Below, piece after piece: positions 2,796-9,837 of a stretch of DNA of 34,408 nt; within the stretch, counting starts at the first letter, position 1; each line of letters begins with the position of its first letter. This DNA comes from Enterovirga sp. GTDB lineage: Bacteria > Pseudomonadota > Alphaproteobacteria > Rhizobiales > Beijerinckiaceae. The stretch is from the NCBI RefSeq assembly GCF_028290205.1, contig NZ_JAQGKF010000242.1, forward strand, positions 1-34,408. The letters are read 5' to 3'. A program made the translations under genes and the position numbers. The notes below the pieces were generated by a model, which was not told the DNA's origin, made no database searches, and saw only the letters and a program-made list of their open reading frames with translations.

Positions 2796-3197
2796 TCACC
2801 ACATATCGAGGGCGATGCGGGCCTCGTCCGACATCCGGCTCTGGTCCCAGGGCGGATCGAAGGTCATGTTGACCGTCACGTCCTTGACCCCGGGCACGGA
2901 GGTGACCGCGTTCTCCACCCAGATCGGCATCTCGCCGGCCACCGGACATCCGGGCGCGGTCAAGGTCATGTCGATGGCGACATGGCGGTCGTCGGCGATG
3001 TCGACGCGGTAGATCAGGCCGAGCTCGTAGATGTCGGCCGGGATCTCGGGGTCGTAGACGGTCTTCAGGGCCGCCACGATCGCGTCCGTCATCCGGTCGA
3101 TCTCCTCGGGCGGCAGGCCGGAGGACGCGGCGGGCGTGTCGGCCACGGGTGCGAGGGCTTCGCTCATCGGGGTCATCTCATCGGCGGGCACGGTCAC
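2796..3197 (-). CDS. sufT: SufT, DUF59/MIP18-type Fe-S assembly factor
   Basis: This small protein (133 residues from the GTG) has the DUF59 fold used in iron-sulfur cluster maturation. The DPE motif is at residues 49-51, DIYELGLIYRVDI at 55-67, the conserved cysteine at 84 in TAPGCPVAGEM, and the DPPW motif at 114-117 near the C terminus. SufT is thought to help deliver or mature Fe-S clusters on client proteins. The first 25 residues are low in conservation. The GTG start overlaps the sufS stop as GTGA, which implies translational coupling. Internal ATG codons at residues 8 and 11 are alternative starts. It is the last gene of the suf operon in this window; the sufA/HesB-type carrier gene often found next in related genomes is absent. 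Confidence 0.93.
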   Translation of the reverse strand: MTVPADEMTPMSEALAPVADTPAASSGLPPEEIDRMTDAIVAALKTVYDPEIPADIYELGLIYRVDIADDRHVAIDMTLTAPGCPVAGEMPIWVENAVTSVPGVKDVTVNMTFDPPWDQSRMSDEARIALDMW

Positions 3198-4438
3198 GAG
3201 AACAGCGTCTCGGCGCGGCCCAGGGCTTCGGCCAGCTTATCGACTTCGGCCATGGTGTTGTAGAGGCCGAACGACGCGCGGCAGGTCGAGGTGGCGCCGA
3301 AGCGGTCGAGCAGCGGCATGGCGCAATGGGTGCCGGCCCGGACGGCGACGCCCTGGCGGTCAATCACGGTCGCGACGTCATGGGCATGTGCGCCCTTCAT
3401 CTCGAAGGACAGGATCGGCCCCTTGCCGGGAGCCCGGCCGATGATCCGGACCGAGTTCATGGCGCCGAGCCGCTCATGCGCATAGGCCGAAACGGCCTCC
3501 TCATGCGCCCGGATGTTCGGCCGCCCGATCCGGTCCATGAAGCGCACCGCGGCGCCGAGCCCGATCGCCTCGACGATGGGCGGCGTGCCGGCCTCGAACC
3601 GATGCGGCGGCTCGCCATAGGTGACCTCGTGGCAGGCCACGACCTTGATCATCTCGCCGCCGCCCTGGTAGGGCGGCAGCCGTTCCAGCCACTCCCGCTT
3701 GCCGTACAGGACCCCAATCCCGGTCGGCCCATAGACCTTGTGGCCCGTGAAGACGTAGAAATCGGCGTCGAGGGCCTGCACGTCGATGTCGAGATGCACG
3801 GCACCCTGGCTGCCGTCCACCATGACGGGCACGCCGTGCGCATGGGCGATGCGGATCACGTCGGCGATCGGCGTCACCGTGCCGAGCACGTTCGACATGT
3901 GCGTCATGGCCACCATTTTGGTGCGCGGCCCGATCAGCTTCTCGAACTCGTCCAGCAGGAAGTTGCCGTCGTCGTCCACCGGCACGAAGCGCAGCACGGC
4001 GCCCTTGCGCTCGCGCAGGAAGTGCCAGGGCACGATGTTGGAATGGTGCTCCATGATGGAGAGGATGATCTCGTCCCCCTCCCCGATCGCCAGCCGGCCG
4101 TAGCTGTCGGCCACGAGGTTGATGGCCTCGGTGGCCGAGCGGGTGAAGACGATCTCGTCCGTGGAGCCGGCGTTGAGAAAGCTCCTCACGCTCTCCCGCG
4201 CCGCCTCGAAGGCATCGGTCGCGGCGTTGGCCATGTAGTGCAGGCCGCGATGCACGTTGCCGTAGCCGCCCGTCATCGTCGCCACCATGGCGTCAATGAC
4301 CTCCCGGGGCTTCTGGGCCGAAGCCGCGTTGTCCAGATAGACCAGCGGCTTGCCGTAGACCTGCGCGGACAGGATCGGGAACTCGGCCCGGAGCGCCTCG
4401 ACGTCATAGGCCGGCTTCGGGCTGAAGGGTGCGTTCAT
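3194..4438 (-). CDS. sufS: SufS, class II cysteine desulfurase
   Basis: This 414-residue PLP enzyme takes sulfur from cysteine as a persulfide for Fe-S cluster assembly, normally handing it to SufE and then SufBCD. The PLP lysine is Lys234 in TGHKVYGPTG and the persulfide cysteine is Cys372 in the class II motif RAGTHCAMP. An N-terminal segment with YLDNAAS (34-40) and the FTRSATEAINLVA block (98-110) are also typical. The frame is open about 300 bases further upstream, but that part is Arg/Ser-rich noise. The ATG at 4438 follows GCAGG and begins MNAPFSPKPAYDVEALRAEFP, as expected for the family. It lies 106 bases after sufD, and that gap contains two strong hairpins. No sufE gene is in the window. 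Confidence 0.96.
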   Translation of the reverse strand: MNAPFSPKPAYDVEALRAEFPILSAQVYGKPLVYLDNAASAQKPREVIDAMVATMTGGYGNVHRGLHYMANAATDAFEAARESVRSFLNAGSTDEIVFTRSATEAINLVADSYGRLAIGEGDEIILSIMEHHSNIVPWHFLRERKGAVLRFVPVDDDGNFLLDEFEKLIGPRTKMVAMTHMSNVLGTVTPIADVIRIAHAHGVPVMVDGSQGAVHLDIDVQALDADFYVFTGHKVYGPTGIGVLYGKREWLERLPPYQGGGEMIKVVACHEVTYGEPPHRFEAGTPPIVEAIGLGAAVRFMDRIGRPNIRAHEEAVSAYAHERLGAMNSVRIIGRAPGKGPILSFEMKGAHAHDVATVIDRQGVAVRAGTHCAMPLLDRFGATSTCRASFGLYNTMAEVDKLAEALGRAETLFS

Positions 4439-4449
4439 GTGCCTGCTAT

Positions 4450-4522
4450 GGCTGGGCCTGCCCAGCCACCCCGATGAGAGATGTCGCGCCCCGAGCCGCC
4501 CTGGCCGGGACGAGCCCGGCCA
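4450..4522 (-). promoter_or_regulatory. Two perfect hairpins in the sufD-sufS gap
   Basis: This is the only sizeable gap inside the sufB-sufT block. It contains TGGCCGGG/CCCGGCCA (4502-4509 with 4515-4522, five-base loop) and GGCTGGGC/GCCCAGCC (4450-4457 with 4460-4467, two-base centre). Both eight-base stems are perfect. The second ends 11 bases before the sufS start codon, next to its ribosome binding site. They could act as an attenuator, a processing or stability element, or a translational brake. Which of these applies is inference. Confidence 0.4.
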
Positions 4523-4544
4523 CGACGTCGGACAGCCATGTGCC

Positions 4545-5867
4545 TCAGGCCCGGTTGGCGAGCCAACCCTCGACCCTCGCCACCAGCCCGTCGCGCACCG
4601 CGTCGTTCTCCAGCGCCTCGAGCGGGGGGCCGACAAAGGCCTGCAGCAGCAGGCTCTCCGCCTCCCGGGCCGGCAGACCGCGGCTGCGGAGGTAGAACAG
4701 CAGGTCCTCGTCGAGGGCCCCGCAGGTCGCGCCGTGCCCACAGACCACGTCGTCGGCGAAGATCTCCAGCTCCGGCTTATTGTTCATGCTGGCGCCGTCC
4801 GACAGCAGCAGCGTGTCCGACTTCATGCCGCCGTCGGTCTTCTGGGCGTGCGGCCGGACAATGATCTTGCCCTGGAACACGCCTTTGGCGTCGCCGTCGA
4901 GAATGGTCTTGAAGGTCTCACGGCTGGTGCAGTGCGGCACCGCGTGATCCACGACCAGGGTCGAGTCGGCGTGCTGGCTGCCCTTGAGCAGGGTCACGCC
5001 GTCGACCGCCGCGCGGCTGTTCTCCCCGGCGAACATCAGGAACACCTGGTGGCGCGCCGATTGCGAGCCCGTGACCGTGTTCAGCGTGTCGAACGAGGCC
5101 TCGGCGCCGAGCTTCACGGTGAGCGTCGAGAGCGCGAGCGCGTCCGAGCCCTCGGCGTTCAGCCGCACATGCTTCACCTGGGCCCGGTCGCCGACCACGA
5201 ACTCGACCACGCCGTTGGGCTGGTAGCCGATGCCGTCCGGCCCCTCATGGCTTTCCAGGACCGTGACCGAGGCGCCCTCCTCCACCAGCACGAGCACGCG
5301 GCTCGCCGTCGAGAAGGCGGACGCTCCCGTGTTGACGAAGCGCAGCGCCAGCGGCTGGGCCGGCGCAAGGCCGGCCGGGATCCGGATCACCGCGCCATCC
5401 CGCAGGAAGGCGGTGTTGAGCTGGTAGACCGGGTTCGTGGCCGCCGTCGCGACGGCGCCGAGCTCGGCCAGGCGCGGATCGCCGGACGCCAGCGCGTCGG
5501 CGAGGGAAATGGCCTCGATCCCGGCCGGCAGGGCCGAGATCTCGGACAATTCGCCGGCCAGATGACCGTTGACGAAGGTCAGCCGCGCCGCCGGGACATC
5601 CGCGAAGGCGCTGGCCTGGTTGAAGGCGAGCGCCAGCTCGGTCGGGCCGGGCCGCCCGGCCGGGGGCGCCGCCTCGCGCATCAGCGCGCGGAGGTCGAAA
5701 TACTTGAACTCCTCGACCCGCCGGTGCGGCAGGCCGCGCTCGCGGAAGCCGGACAGGGCCTGCTCACGCACCGCGACGTCACCGGGGAGACCGCCCTTGA
5801 GGCGATCAAACAGCTCGGAGAGCCCCGTCTCCGCTGCCGTTCGGATCACGCTTACCTGCGCGGCCAT
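4545..5867 (-). CDS. sufD: SufD, Fe-S assembly scaffold subunit
   Basis: This 440-residue protein is the SufB paralogue that forms the SufB-SufC2-SufD scaffold on which clusters are built. The C-terminal SufBD core is evident from about residue 150, ending with the hallmark CGHGATCGALDEDLLFYLRSRG; His378 in this motif corresponds to the functional histidine of the SufB-SufD interface in E. coli SufD. The N-terminal helical part includes GFRERGLPHRRVEEFKYFDLR, typical of SufD. The open frame extends 16 codons further, but the ATG at 5867 lies one base after the sufC stop (TGA-C-ATG) and gives the expected MAAQVSV start. This tight spacing indicates coupling with sufC. Confidence 0.96.
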   Translation of the reverse strand: MAAQVSVIRTAAETGLSELFDRLKGGLPGDVAVREQALSGFRERGLPHRRVEEFKYFDLRALMREAAPPAGRPGPTELALAFNQASAFADVPAARLTFVNGHLAGELSEISALPAGIEAISLADALASGDPRLAELGAVATAATNPVYQLNTAFLRDGAVIRIPAGLAPAQPLALRFVNTGASAFSTASRVLVLVEEGASVTVLESHEGPDGIGYQPNGVVEFVVGDRAQVKHVRLNAEGSDALALSTLTVKLGAEASFDTLNTVTGSQSARHQVFLMFAGENSRAAVDGVTLLKGSQHADSTLVVDHAVPHCTSRETFKTILDGDAKGVFQGKIIVRPHAQKTDGGMKSDTLLLSDGASMNNKPELEIFADDVVCGHGATCGALDEDLLFYLRSRGLPAREAESLLLQAFVGPPLEALENDAVRDGLVARVEGWLANRA

Positions 5868-5868
5868 G

Positions 5869-6636
5869 TCAGGCTGCCTCGGCCGAAGCAGCGGCCGGCT
5901 GGCGGTAATCGGCATAGCCGTTCTTCTCGAGCTCGAGCGCCAGCTCCTTGCCGCCCGTCTTCACGATGCGGCCATCCGCCATGACGTGCACGGTGTCCGG
6001 CACGATGTGGTTCAGGAGGCGCTGATAGTGGGTGATCACCAGGAACGAGCGATCGGCCGAGCGCAGCGCGTTCACGCCCTCGGACACGATGCGGAGCGCG
6101 TCGATATCGAGGCCGGAATCGGTCTCGTCCAGGATGCAGAACTTCGGCTCCAGCAGGGCCATCTGCAGGATCTCCATCCGCTTCTTCTCGCCGCCGGAGA
6201 ACCCGACATTGAGCGCGCGCTTCAGGAAGTCCCGGTTGATCTCGAGCTTGGCGCCGGCCGCGTTGACCCGCTTGATCAGCTCGGGCGTGGTGAGCTCCGG
6301 CTCGCCGCGGGCGCGCCGCTGCGCGTTCAGCGCCGCCTTCAGGAAGGTCATGGTGCCGACGCCCGGAATCTCGAGCGGGTACTGGAAGGCCAGGAACACG
6401 CCCGCTGCGGCGCGCTGATCGGGCTCCATCTCGAGCAGGTTCCGGCCGTCGAGCAGGATTTCCCCGTCCAGGACCTCGTAATCCTGCCGCCCGGCAATGA
6501 CGTAGGACAGGGTCGATTTGCCCGAGCCGTTCGGCCCCATGATGGCCGCGACCTCACCGTCCGCGACCTTCAGGTTCAGGCCATTCAGAATGCGGTTGTC
6601 CTCGATCTGGACGACCAGGTTGTTGATCTCGATCAT
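5869..6636 (-). CDS. sufC: SufC, Fe-S assembly ATPase
   Basis: This 255-residue ABC-type ATPase powers conformational changes of the SufBCD scaffold in the cytoplasm. Walker A is GPNGSGKST at residues 34-42, the ABC signature is [11 protein letters not shown] at 146-156, Walker B is [12 protein letters not shown] at 166-177 with Asp170 and Glu171, and the switch histidine is His203 (ITHYQ). The length is normal for the family. The C-terminal tail, after NGYADYR, is Ala-rich and short. The gene starts 23 bases after the small unnamed gene and runs almost directly into sufD. Confidence 0.97.
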
Positions 6637-6659
6637 GAAAAGCAGTGTCCGTTGATAGG

Positions 6660-6974
6660 TCAGGAGTTCGCGAAGGTCGCGATCTCGCGAATCAGGCCGT
6701 CGAGGTCGCGCTCGGCCTCGCCGCCCGCGTCGAGCATGTTGGTGGAGGCGCTGGCCGAGGCGACCTCGCCGGTGACGAAGCGGTTCTCACCCACGCGCCG
6801 CACGAGAAGGCGCCGGCTCTCGCCCGCGACCAGGATGAGATCCTCGGCCTCGCGAAAGGCCTGGAGGCGCGGAAAAGCCGCCGCGACGGCGGCCTCGAGA
6901 TGGGCAGCGGAGGCGCCGGACCGGAGGGCGGCCTCGAAGGCCGCCCGTGTCGCCTGCTGGCCCGGGGTCGTCAC
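6660..6974 (-). CDS. Unnamed 104-residue protein between sufB and sufC
   Basis: This frame begins with a GTG at 6974 that overlaps the sufB stop codon as GTGA, and it ends 23 bases before sufC. Translation is therefore probably coupled to sufB. The product is Ala- and Glu-rich, with predicted helices at the N terminus (about residues 8-45), a short beta-like stretch ([25 protein letters not shown] cut into two strands, 45-69) and a C-terminal helix (88-101). It has no cysteine, no signal peptide and no membrane segment, so it is unlikely to ligate a cluster by thiols. I do not recognise a named family. Canonical suf operons go directly from sufB to sufC. Its position suggests an accessory subunit or regulator of the SufBCD scaffold, but nothing in the sequence proves it. 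Confidence 0.75.
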
Positions 6975-8443
6975 CCGACGCTCCCCTCGAGCGAGATCGC
7001 GATGAGCTTCTGCGCTTCCACCGCGAACTCCATGGGCAGCTTCTGCAGCACCTCCTTGACGAAGCCGTTGACGATCAGCGCCACCGCCTCCTCGTCCGAC
7101 AGACCGCGGCTCTGGCAATAGAACATCTGGTCTTCGGAGATCTTGGACGTGGTGGCCTCGTGCTCGAACACCGCCGAGGCGTTGTTGGATTCGAGATACG
7201 GCACGGTGTGGGCACCGCACTGGTCGCCAATGAGCAGCGAGTCGCAATTCGTGAAATTGCGGGCGCCCGTGGCCCGGCGATGTGCCGAGATCAGGCCCCG
7301 ATACGTGTTGTCGGAGCGCCCCGCCGCGATGCCCTTCGAGATCACCTTGGAGGTGGTGTTCTTCCCGAGATGGATCATCTTGGTGCCGGAATCGACCTGC
7401 TGCTTTCCGTTCGAGATGGCGATCGAATAGAATTCGCCGCGCGAACCGTCGCCGCGGAGGATGCAGGAAGGGTACTTCCAGGTGATGGCGGAGCCCGTCT
7501 CGACCTGGGTCCAGGTGATGATCGAGTTCTTGCCGCGGCAATCGCCCCGCTTGGTGACGAAGTTGTAGATGCCGCCCTTGCCCTCGCTGTCGCCCGGATA
7601 CCAGTTCTGGACGGTCGAGTACTTGATCTCGGCATCGTCGAGCGTGACCAGTTCGACCACGGCCGCGTGGAGCTGGTTCTCGTCCCGGCGCGGCGCGGTG
7701 CAGCCCTCGAGATAGGACACGTACGAGCCCTTGTCGGCGATGATCAGCGTGCGCTCGAACTGCCCCGTGTTCCGCTCGTTGATGCGGAAATAGGTCGACA
7801 GCTCCATCGGGCAGCGCACCCCCGGAGGGATGTATACGAAGGAGCCGTCCGAGAAGACGGCCGAGTTGAGGGTCGCGAAATAGTTGTCGGTAACCGGCAC
7901 GACCGTCCCGAGATATTGACGCACCAGGTCGGGGTGCTCCCGGATCGCCTCCGAGATGGGCATGAAGATCACGCCGGCCTTGGCCAGCTCGGCCTTGAAG
8001 GTGGTTGCGACCGACACGGAGTCGAACACTGCGTCCACGGCCACGTTGGAGCCCGGGATGCCCTCGAGCATCGCGACCTCGCGCAGCGGAATGCCGAGCT
8101 TCTTGTAGGTCTCGAGGATCGCCGGATCGAGGTCGTCGAGGGAGGCGGGCCCTTCCTTGAAGCCCTTTGGCGCGGCGTAATAATACAGATCGTCGTAATC
8201 GATCTTCGGATAGTCGACGCGCGCCCAATCGGGCTCGCGCATGGTGCGCCAGCGCCGGTAGGCATCGAGCCGCCACTCCAGCATCCAGGCCGGTTCGTTT
8301 TTCTTGGCCGAGATGAAGCGGACAGTCTCCTCCGATAGGCCCCGCGGGGCCTTCTCCATCTCGATCTCGGTCTCGAACCCGTATTTGTACTGATCAACGT
8401 CGATCAGCTTTACGCGCTCGATGGTCTCCTGCACGGCAGGCAT
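6971..8443 (-). CDS. sufB: SufB, Fe-S assembly scaffold protein
   Basis: This 490-residue protein is the main scaffold of the SUF system. The sequence shows the standard SufB blocks: [10 protein letters not shown] (19-28), [17 protein letters not shown] (206-222), YLEGCTAP with Cys248, the [17 protein letters not shown] block with Cys400 at the position of the E. coli scaffold cysteine 405, and [21 protein letters not shown] (428-446). Length and domain order are normal. The ATG at 8443 is preceded by AGGAG seven bases upstream. The gene lies 71 bases after the upstream cysteine desulfurase in the same direction, and its stop overlaps the start of the small 104-residue gene. Confidence 0.97.
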
Positions 8444-8514: not shown

Positions 8515-9681
8515 TCACGCGGCCCGCGCCCGTTCCCGTTCATATAGGCGCTGCAACACGTTTTCGTAGGCCGCCAGGAAACGGCCCACATCCTCTTCGC
8601 CGCTGGACCAGCCGAAGCTCAGCCGCAATGCGCCGCGCGCCATCTCGTCGCGGACCCCCATGGCGGCCAGCACATGGGAGCGCCCGACCTTGCCGGACGA
8701 ACAGGCGGACCCCGACGATGCCGCCACCCCGGCGAGATCGAGACCGATCAGGACCGTCTCGGCCGCCACGCCGGGCACGCCGAACAGCAGCGTGTTCGGC
8801 AGCCGCGGGGCGGCGGCGCCGAAGACGGTCAGGTCGGGCGCCAGCCTGCGCAGGCCGGCCTCGGCCGCGTCCCGCAAAGCCCCGAGCCGGCTCGCCGCCG
8901 CCCCGAGTTCGGCCGCCGCCAGCCGCGCTGCAACCCCGAAGCCGACACAACCGGCCACGTTCTCGGTGCCGCCGCGCCGCCCGCGCTCCTGCCCGCCGCC
9001 GCGGATAAAGGATGGGGCTGCGCCCGACCGGACGGGCCTGAGGACCAGCGCCCCGATCCCCATCGGCCCACCGAGCTTGTGCGCGGACAGGCTCAGCGCG
9101 TCCACCCCCAGAGCCTCCATCCCGAGCGGGACGCGGCCGGCCGCCTGAACGGCGTCGGCATGGAGCACCGCGCCGGCGGCCCTCACCTGTTCGGCGATCG
9201 CCGCGAGCGGCTGCAGGGCGCCGGTCTCTGAATTCGCGACCTGCACTGAAACCAGCGCCGGCGGTCCGACATGCAGCCTGCGGGCGAGATCTTCGAGATC
9301 GAGGAGCCCGGCCCCGTCCACAGCCAGCACCTCCACGGCCTCCGGCGGAAAGCCGTGGCCGGACAGCACCGACGGGTGTTCGGTCGGGCTCACGAGGAGG
9401 CGGTCGACCGGCGCGCCGGCCTCAGTCCGCAAAGCGCCCGGCCGCAGCGCGGCGTTGTTGGCTTCCGTGCCGCCGCTCGTGAACACGACGTCCTCGGCCC
9501 GGGCTCCGACCAAGGCGGCGACCTCTCGTCGCGCGGCCTCCACCAGGGCCCGCCCCCGGCGGCCCTCCGCGTGCACGGATGACGGGTTGCCGGCCCCGGC
9601 GGCAGCGGCGCACGCCTCCGCTACCTCGGGCCGCAGCGGCGAGGTCGCGTTATGGTCGAGATAGAGGCGCGTCCCCTTCAT
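8515..9681 (-). CDS. Class I (IscS/NifS-type) cysteine desulfurase heading the suf operon
   Basis: This 388-residue PLP-dependent enzyme removes sulfur from cysteine. It opens with the family motif YLDHNATSPLRPEV (7-20). Glu101-His102 lie in the cofactor-stacking motif, the PLP lysine is Lys202 in SAHKLGGPMGIGAL, and the mobile-loop catalytic cysteine is Cys327 in ASSGSACSSGKVGRSHVL, which is the class I arrangement. The open frame continues 22 codons upstream, but the ATG at 9681 gives the expected N terminus. It is the first gene of the operon, so one transcript would encode both a class I enzyme and SufS. It may supply sulfur directly to SufB or to other acceptors such as tRNA thiolation enzymes; this cannot be decided here. 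The gene product is alanine-rich but carries all key residues. Confidence 0.93.
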   Translation of the reverse strand: MKGTRLYLDHNATSPLRPEVAEACAAAAGAGNPSSVHAEGRRGRALVEAARREVAALVGARAEDVVFTSGGTEANNAALRPGALRTEAGAPVDRLLVSPTEHPSVLSGHGFPPEAVEVLAVDGAGLLDLEDLARRLHVGPPALVSVQVANSETGALQPLAAIAEQVRAAGAVLHADAVQAAGRVPLGMEALGVDALSLSAHKLGGPMGIGALVLRPVRSGAAPSFIRGGGQERGRRGGTENVAGCVGFGVAARLAAAELGAAASRLGALRDAAEAGLRRLAPDLTVFGAAAPRLPNTLLFGVPGVAAETVLIGLDLAGVAASSGSACSSGKVGRSHVLAAMGVRDEMARGALRLSFGWSSGEEDVGRFLAAYENVLQRLYERERARAA

Positions 9682-9837
9682 CTCGCGGCAGCGGCTCCGG
9701 CAACGCGTCACCCTGCCTGGCCGGGCGACGGAGGAAAAACCTTGCAATCACGGGACCGCAGCGTGATATCCACGGCTCCCATTCGACGCCTGCCAGCCAG
9801 CTTTGCCCAGGGCGCGGCGGGGAGACGGTCACTCAGA

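Follow-up and report, generated by a model that had tools for sequence, protein, structure and literature searches.

A small orphan gene, here termed X, lies between sufB and sufC in Enterovirga sp., and its homologues and selection tests indicate that it is a genuine coding gene under purifying selection. The junction that it occupies is a variable one: in this order, extra genes between sufB and sufC are common, mostly unrelated and different from genus to genus. We lean, with modest confidence, towards X being a dispensable passenger of the suf transcript, which would be produced by translational restart at the sufB stop codon and would be useful when the SUF system is induced.

In the 34,408-nucleotide stretch of DNA analysed here (the window), X occupies positions 6660..6974 (-) and was recognized as an orphan ORF of 104 codons, with a GTG start and a TGA stop, on the basis of the reading frame, its homologues and selection tests. 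Direct reading of the sequence places the GTG at 6974-6972 and the TGA of sufB at 6973-6971, so that start and stop overlap in the tetranucleotide GTGA (6971..6974, (-)). The stop codon of X ends at 6660 and the ATG of sufC begins at 6636, which leaves a spacing of 23 bases. The product has 104 residues, no cysteine, a computed mass of 10.9 kDa and a computed pI of 5.1. Coordinates and translation therefore confirm what an earlier note, made from the sequence alone, had described as a cysteine-free 104-residue ORF with a GTGA overlap 23 bases ahead of sufC.

The neighbouring genes sufB (6971..8443), sufC (5869..6636), sufD (4545..5915) and sufS (3194..4741), all on the minus strand, pass their NCBIfam cut-offs. 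The sufS frame is a mechanically called ORF in which the SufS match begins at about residue 112-116, so that sufS itself probably starts at a lower coordinate. A FeS_assembly_P (PF01883) gene (2796..3197, (-)) is located downstream of sufS, and a NifS/IscS-like cysteine desulfurase gene (8515..9747, (-)), which stays below the curated NCBIfam cut-offs shown, is located upstream of sufB. By position, X belongs to the class of same-strand genes that occupy the sufB-sufC junction, and its overlap with sufB suggests that it is co-transcribed with suf. A scan of positions 6500-7200 for sigma-70 promoters and terminators, which was expected to return almost none, found none, and the only two Rfam matches in positions 6000-7600 were far below gathering scores and were taken as chance. 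The GC3 value of X (0.895) lies within the range of sufB, sufC and sufD (0.886-0.921).

Since the GC content is 70% and two antisense frames over X are likewise free of stops in the window copy, the open frame by itself is little proof of a gene. Homologues of X were found in Enterovirga aerilata (G008; order Hyphomicrobiales in the NCBI taxonomy) and in a member of another genus of the same family (G097), with identities to the window copy of 56% and 54%, respectively. The three copies are about equidistant (pairwise identities of 53-56%), which could fit fast change or separate arrival alike. In all three carriers, representing two genera, X is located at the sufB-sufC junction; in G097, however, it starts about 120 bases past the sufB stop, so that the start/stop overlap is not conserved there. 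The three-way alignment contains 43 invariant columns, 36 of which fall in residues 35-102. In the first pair of copies, codons differ at 0.50 of third positions as compared to 0.34 and 0.28 at the other two, and the NG86 dN/dS values of the three pairs (0.42/0.84, 0.47/0.77 and 0.44/1.08) correspond to ratios of 0.4-0.6. A Ka/Ks near 1, which the earlier note had named as evidence against a functional gene, is not what is seen: next to the third-position excess, a codon model rejects omega = 1 (2dlnL of 95). In this maximum likelihood fit the branch lengths were at or near their upper bound, and because of this saturation only the likelihood ratio, and not the fitted omega, was used.

Strong matches to X are present in 3 of the 397 genomes of the family sample and absent from the other 394, which agrees with the earlier description of the gene as lineage-specific. 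In the order sample (397 genomes) and in the class sample (289 genomes), X was found in its own genome only. Nine further, weak matches were detected in the family sample (E values of 2.6e-4 to 0.009); two of these (L052 and L057) are antisense to an ORF that by eye resembles an electron-transfer-flavoprotein oxidoreductase and were discarded as chance matches. The profile search that the earlier note had proposed returned no family above cut-off: the window copy had no NCBIfam family above cut-off and no Pfam match up to an E value of 10, PF01491 and PF08818 included, the G097 copy had no Pfam match, and the G008 copy had a single Pfam match below cut-off (ArsA_HSP20, E 0.045). A PDB sequence search gave no match. 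A viral origin was rejected, as viral contigs contained no relative and two copies of X had no PHROG family, and so was a role as an anti-phage defence gene, since the three copies matched 0 PADLOC-DB families up to an E value of 1.

Within the genus, the junction could be read in six of nine genomes including the window (unreadable in G001, G003 and G004). X is absent from four of the five other readable junctions: G007 has only a coiled-coil-like ORF termed Y, G005 has two other ORFs of 174 and 73 aa, and G006 and G002 have 65 and 109 bases, respectively, with no gene. The fifth, G008, carries Y followed by X. A core SUF component would be expected wherever the suf operon is present, which is not the case for X. 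The earlier note had suggested checking whether relatives retain the gene at the same place and would have counted absence from close relatives against its proposal; retention is borne out by G008 and G097, whereas the four junctions mentioned lack the gene.

ORF Y, of 82-83 aa, directly follows sufB in its two genomes (L004:1235-1486 and L008:2963-3214). The two copies are 59% identical, have no Pfam match above cut-off and have one weak PHROG match of unknown function (E 5e-4).

A tree of SufB and SufC from the genus and 11 outgroup loci, in which the SufB of G002 is partial, holds the genus together (support of 98) with G097 beside it (100). G006, G002 and G007 form a group (99) next to G008 (83), G005 falls with the window with no support value shown, and the outgroup backbone is weak (23-39 at deep nodes). 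On this tree, one gain of X followed by two losses requires as many steps as three independent gains. One gain is preferred because under three gains one and the same rare gene would have had to arrive at this site each time, yet the equal parsimony makes vertical descent an inference. The history of X would thus involve either a single gain with two losses or repeated gains, and in view of the coding evidence gain and loss account for the patchy occurrence of the gene better than a spurious ORF does.

The variability of the junction extends far beyond the genus. Junctions were read in 29 family-sample genomes, each of another genus (a thirtieth was unreadable), and in 29 order-sample genomes, which were, beside the window, the top-scoring ones among 60 genomes with a match and are a non-random choice; L047, which has no sufB C-terminus, is outside the count. 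Including the window, 22 of the 58 readable junctions measure at least 240 bp or have no sufC in reach, and the remaining 36 measure 192 bp or less. In three of the four junctions with no sufC in reach, longer stretches revealed sufC further downstream. The contig of L025 ends before sufC, which leaves the placement of its insert between the two genes unproven; the 357-bp gap of L044 contains no same-strand ORF of 60 aa. When a profile of X was compared with the 37 ORFs of this slot, only the two known copies were recovered, the next match having an E value of 0.069. According to Pfam, Cupin_2 proteins are encoded in six junctions, pairs of a nucleotidyltransferase and a HEPN protein in two and DUF4440/SnoaL-like proteins in two, and AAA_21, GIY-YIG, Uma2, ABM, YbjQ, chlorite-dismutase-like and DUF4267 proteins in one each; other inserts, such as those of L027, L031, L099 and L116, match nothing in Pfam.

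The Cupin_2 ORFs (165-201 aa) belong to six genomes of different genera (L035:1004-1501, L041:1004-1501, L048:986-1501, L097:3092-3619, L105:2975-3484 and L120:3752-4357), and the Cupin_2 protein may, unlike X, really be a recurring neighbour of SUF. The nucleotidyltransferase and HEPN pairs, which are toxin-antitoxin-like, occur in two genera (L040:3214-4202 and L114:2975-3762). Two genera also share 73-aa slot ORFs that are alike by eye (L006:3542-3763 and L113:909-1130), and another two encode small membrane-like slot proteins with a common start, YWFRP...GYGA...W by eye (L031:1196-1447 and L116:1223-1501).

An occupied sufB-sufC junction is also found in Muricauda olearia, which we take to belong to a distant phylum. 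In that species, momL is reported to lie between sufB and sufC and to be co-transcribed with suf (PMC5484670); in contrast to X, momL encodes a secreted lactonase. Closer examples come from Alphaproteobacteria. In Rhodobacter sphaeroides, the isc-suf operon is co-transcribed and carries RSP_0439, annotated as a hypothetical protein, between SufB and SufC. The arrangement of this operon is reported to be highly conserved in the Rhodobacteraceae, apart from some variation in non-annotated ORFs (PMC6956336, PMC4618611). RSP_0439 is likened to X by position, and X for its part has no relative beyond its own genome among the 289 class genomes. Another example is Caulobacter crescentus, where a small ORF is located between sufB and sufC of the isc-suf operon (PMC11475020). 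It shares with X the junction and an alphaproteobacterial isc-suf operon, but it is annotated there to another family, whereas X has no Pfam match. Together with the 22 of 58 junctions of at least 240 bp or with no sufC in reach, these published genes contradict for this order the premise of the earlier note that canonical suf operons have no gene at this place (PMC6956336, PMC4618611, PMC11475020). The statement that suf clusters had earlier always been seen without unrelated genes (PMC5484670) does not agree with the junction census in this order.

A feature of the sufB end itself may be the reason why genes settle at this junction. The C-terminal SLEGSVG of SufB hardly varies, and it is encoded by purine-rich, Shine-Dalgarno-like codons. 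In the window, the Shine-Dalgarno-like sequence GAGGGGAG (6981..6988, (-)) lies within the LEGSVG codons of sufB, with GAGGGG ending 8 nt before the GTG of X, and has a duplex energy of -8.6 kcal/mol. Duplexes were calculated for 20 bases ending 5 bases before the end of the stop codon, against what we take to be the 16S rRNA tail sequence, at 64 sufB loci (the 58 census junctions, G097 and five genus genomes). The sufB ends have a median of -8.9 kcal/mol (n = 64), as compared to an average of -4.0 for internal sufB windows (n = 1215), 4.8% of which reach the median of the ends, and to a median of -4.3 for the sufC ends of 57 of the same loci. The general strength of a Shine-Dalgarno-like site at the end of sufB is well supported by these values. 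The site is stronger at junctions with an insert than at those without one (medians of -9.55, n = 26, and -6.85, n = 38; p 0.0009). In the former, the sufB stop is also overlapped more often by a start codon (11/26 versus 4/38; p 0.006), which some inserts do not use. When nearest neighbours on a SufB tree were paired greedily, the insert side had the stronger site in 15 pairs and the weaker one in 9, with 2 ties (p 0.012). Codon choice for Glu-Gly in LEGSVG was not significantly associated with inserts (10/26 versus 6/38; p 0.076). Because the loci are related, the support for a link between the site and inserts is moderate. Among the literature matches listed, no title concerned such a site, although absence from print is not claimed, and in PMC6956336 the sole Shine-Dalgarno mention concerns iscS.

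Under the passenger reading, ribosomes finishing sufB would restart at the overlapping GTG with the help of the Shine-Dalgarno-like sequence, so that the transcript of the suf operon itself would yield X alongside SufB. Its product, a predicted soluble and acidic alpha-beta sandwich of 10.9 kDa, would do a dispensable job that is useful under SUF induction and would not be a fixed part of SufBCD. Against this reading stands that all three carriers have X at the same junction and that it was found nowhere else, as would also be the case for a SUF partner. Furthermore, the matched-pair test is weaker than the group test, the window is among the weaker cases (-8.6 as compared to -9.2 kcal/mol for its paired locus), and coupling through the overlap is not conserved in G097.

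The position between sufB and sufC in every carrier, the overlap with the sufB stop and the purifying selection would also suit the proposal of the earlier note, a SUF accessory protein acting, for example, on SufBCD assembly or SufC ATPase activity; such a protein would bind SufB, SufC or SufD and modulate the assembly of clusters. We consider this possible but doubtful, as four of the five other readable genus junctions do without X despite the presence of sufB and sufC, and as X has diverged much more rapidly than SufB and SufC (dN of 0.42-0.47 versus 0.05-0.13). In addition, the same slot also holds cupins, nucleotidyltransferase-HEPN pairs, and GIY-YIG and Uma2 nucleases, and because so many unrelated genes occupy the junction, a SUF role of X cannot be inferred from its place.

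Structure prediction, which the earlier note had recommended, gave a consistent fold. AlphaFold2 models of the window and G097 copies, both built from one three-sequence alignment set, have mean pLDDT values of 81 and 85 and pTM values of 0.74 and 0.78. They predict N-terminal helices, four long and one short antiparallel-looking strands, and a C-terminal helix, that is, a putative small alpha-beta sandwich that is weakly frataxin-like with no sequence support. Frataxin/CyaY and the Bacillus subtilis Fra protein (YdhG, DUF1801) are likewise small acidic alpha-beta sandwiches, but no sequence similarity to X was found and the fold score is within background. Foldseek returned nothing at an E value of 0.001 from the PDB and viral models. 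In VIA-align, whose own documentation warns that a Z score under 8 may reflect merely a common arrangement, the top row for both models was Rv3902c (Z of 5.8 and 5.7). Frataxin-family chains, with Z scores of at most 4.8, accounted for 5 of 50 rows with the first model; with the second they accounted for 13 of 50, next to two YdhG/Fra rows. The alignments with 4lp1_A (Z of 4.8 and 4.7, 75 and 76 residues, rmsd of 3.2 and 3.8) were tied by unrelated rows.

That X might be a frataxin-like modulator of iron or sulfur transfer to SUF, in a lineage that lacks CyaY, would fit the helices, antiparallel sheet and C-terminal helix of both models, the frataxin rows in VIA-align, and the failure to find CyaY in its own genome or DUF1801 in G000 or G008. 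This modelled resemblance is nevertheless improbable as an explanation. All Z scores are below 8, Rv3902c (both models) and a Mediator subunit (first model) score higher than the frataxins, OspA and Csm1 score close to them, and frataxin has many PDB entries. Comparison by hhalign of X (a three-sequence profile and hence a weak test) with 18 CyaY sequences gave a probability of 0.2 over one aligned column, in line with the Foldseek result. X also lacks the invariants of the CyaY alignment A6 (F5, W59, S62, P63, S65 and W79), which was made without L083 and L090 (wrong frame): tryptophan, kept in CyaY, is absent from the window and G008 copies and occurs once in the G097 copy. With neither a Pfam match nor an hhalign signal nor these invariants, X was rejected as a frataxin by sequence, and the predicted resemblance is treated as a lead only, X not being classed as a frataxin. 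DUF1801 proteins are present in two of the nine genus genomes (G003 and G007), both of which have no X, but this exclusion means little since there are only nine genomes, partly incomplete. We give very little credence to the combined proposal that X is a diverged frataxin fold replacing CyaY/Fra as SUF modulator in one Hyphomicrobiales lineage and that the junction is a general acquisition site through a ribosome-binding site in the constrained SufB C-terminus. Finally, the view that X is a frame left open by chance in GC-rich DNA, for which the other open frames across X and its lack of a family match above cut-off could be cited, can be dismissed in the face of homologues in the same place, the codon-position pattern and the selection test.

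The results correct an inference from neighbourhood, as in this order a role in the assembly of Fe-S clusters can hardly be read from a place between sufB and sufC alone. X represents an orphan family, and the small fold predicted for it is reasonably confident. The novelty claimed for the finding is lessened by the variability of the site. If the idea of a Shine-Dalgarno-like sequence within sufB is true, the suf operon would offer incoming genes both a promoter and a ready start site, which would explain in concrete and testable terms why genes land there. The more general point would then be that a junction at which genes land may carry its ribosome-binding site inside the conserved tail of a protein.
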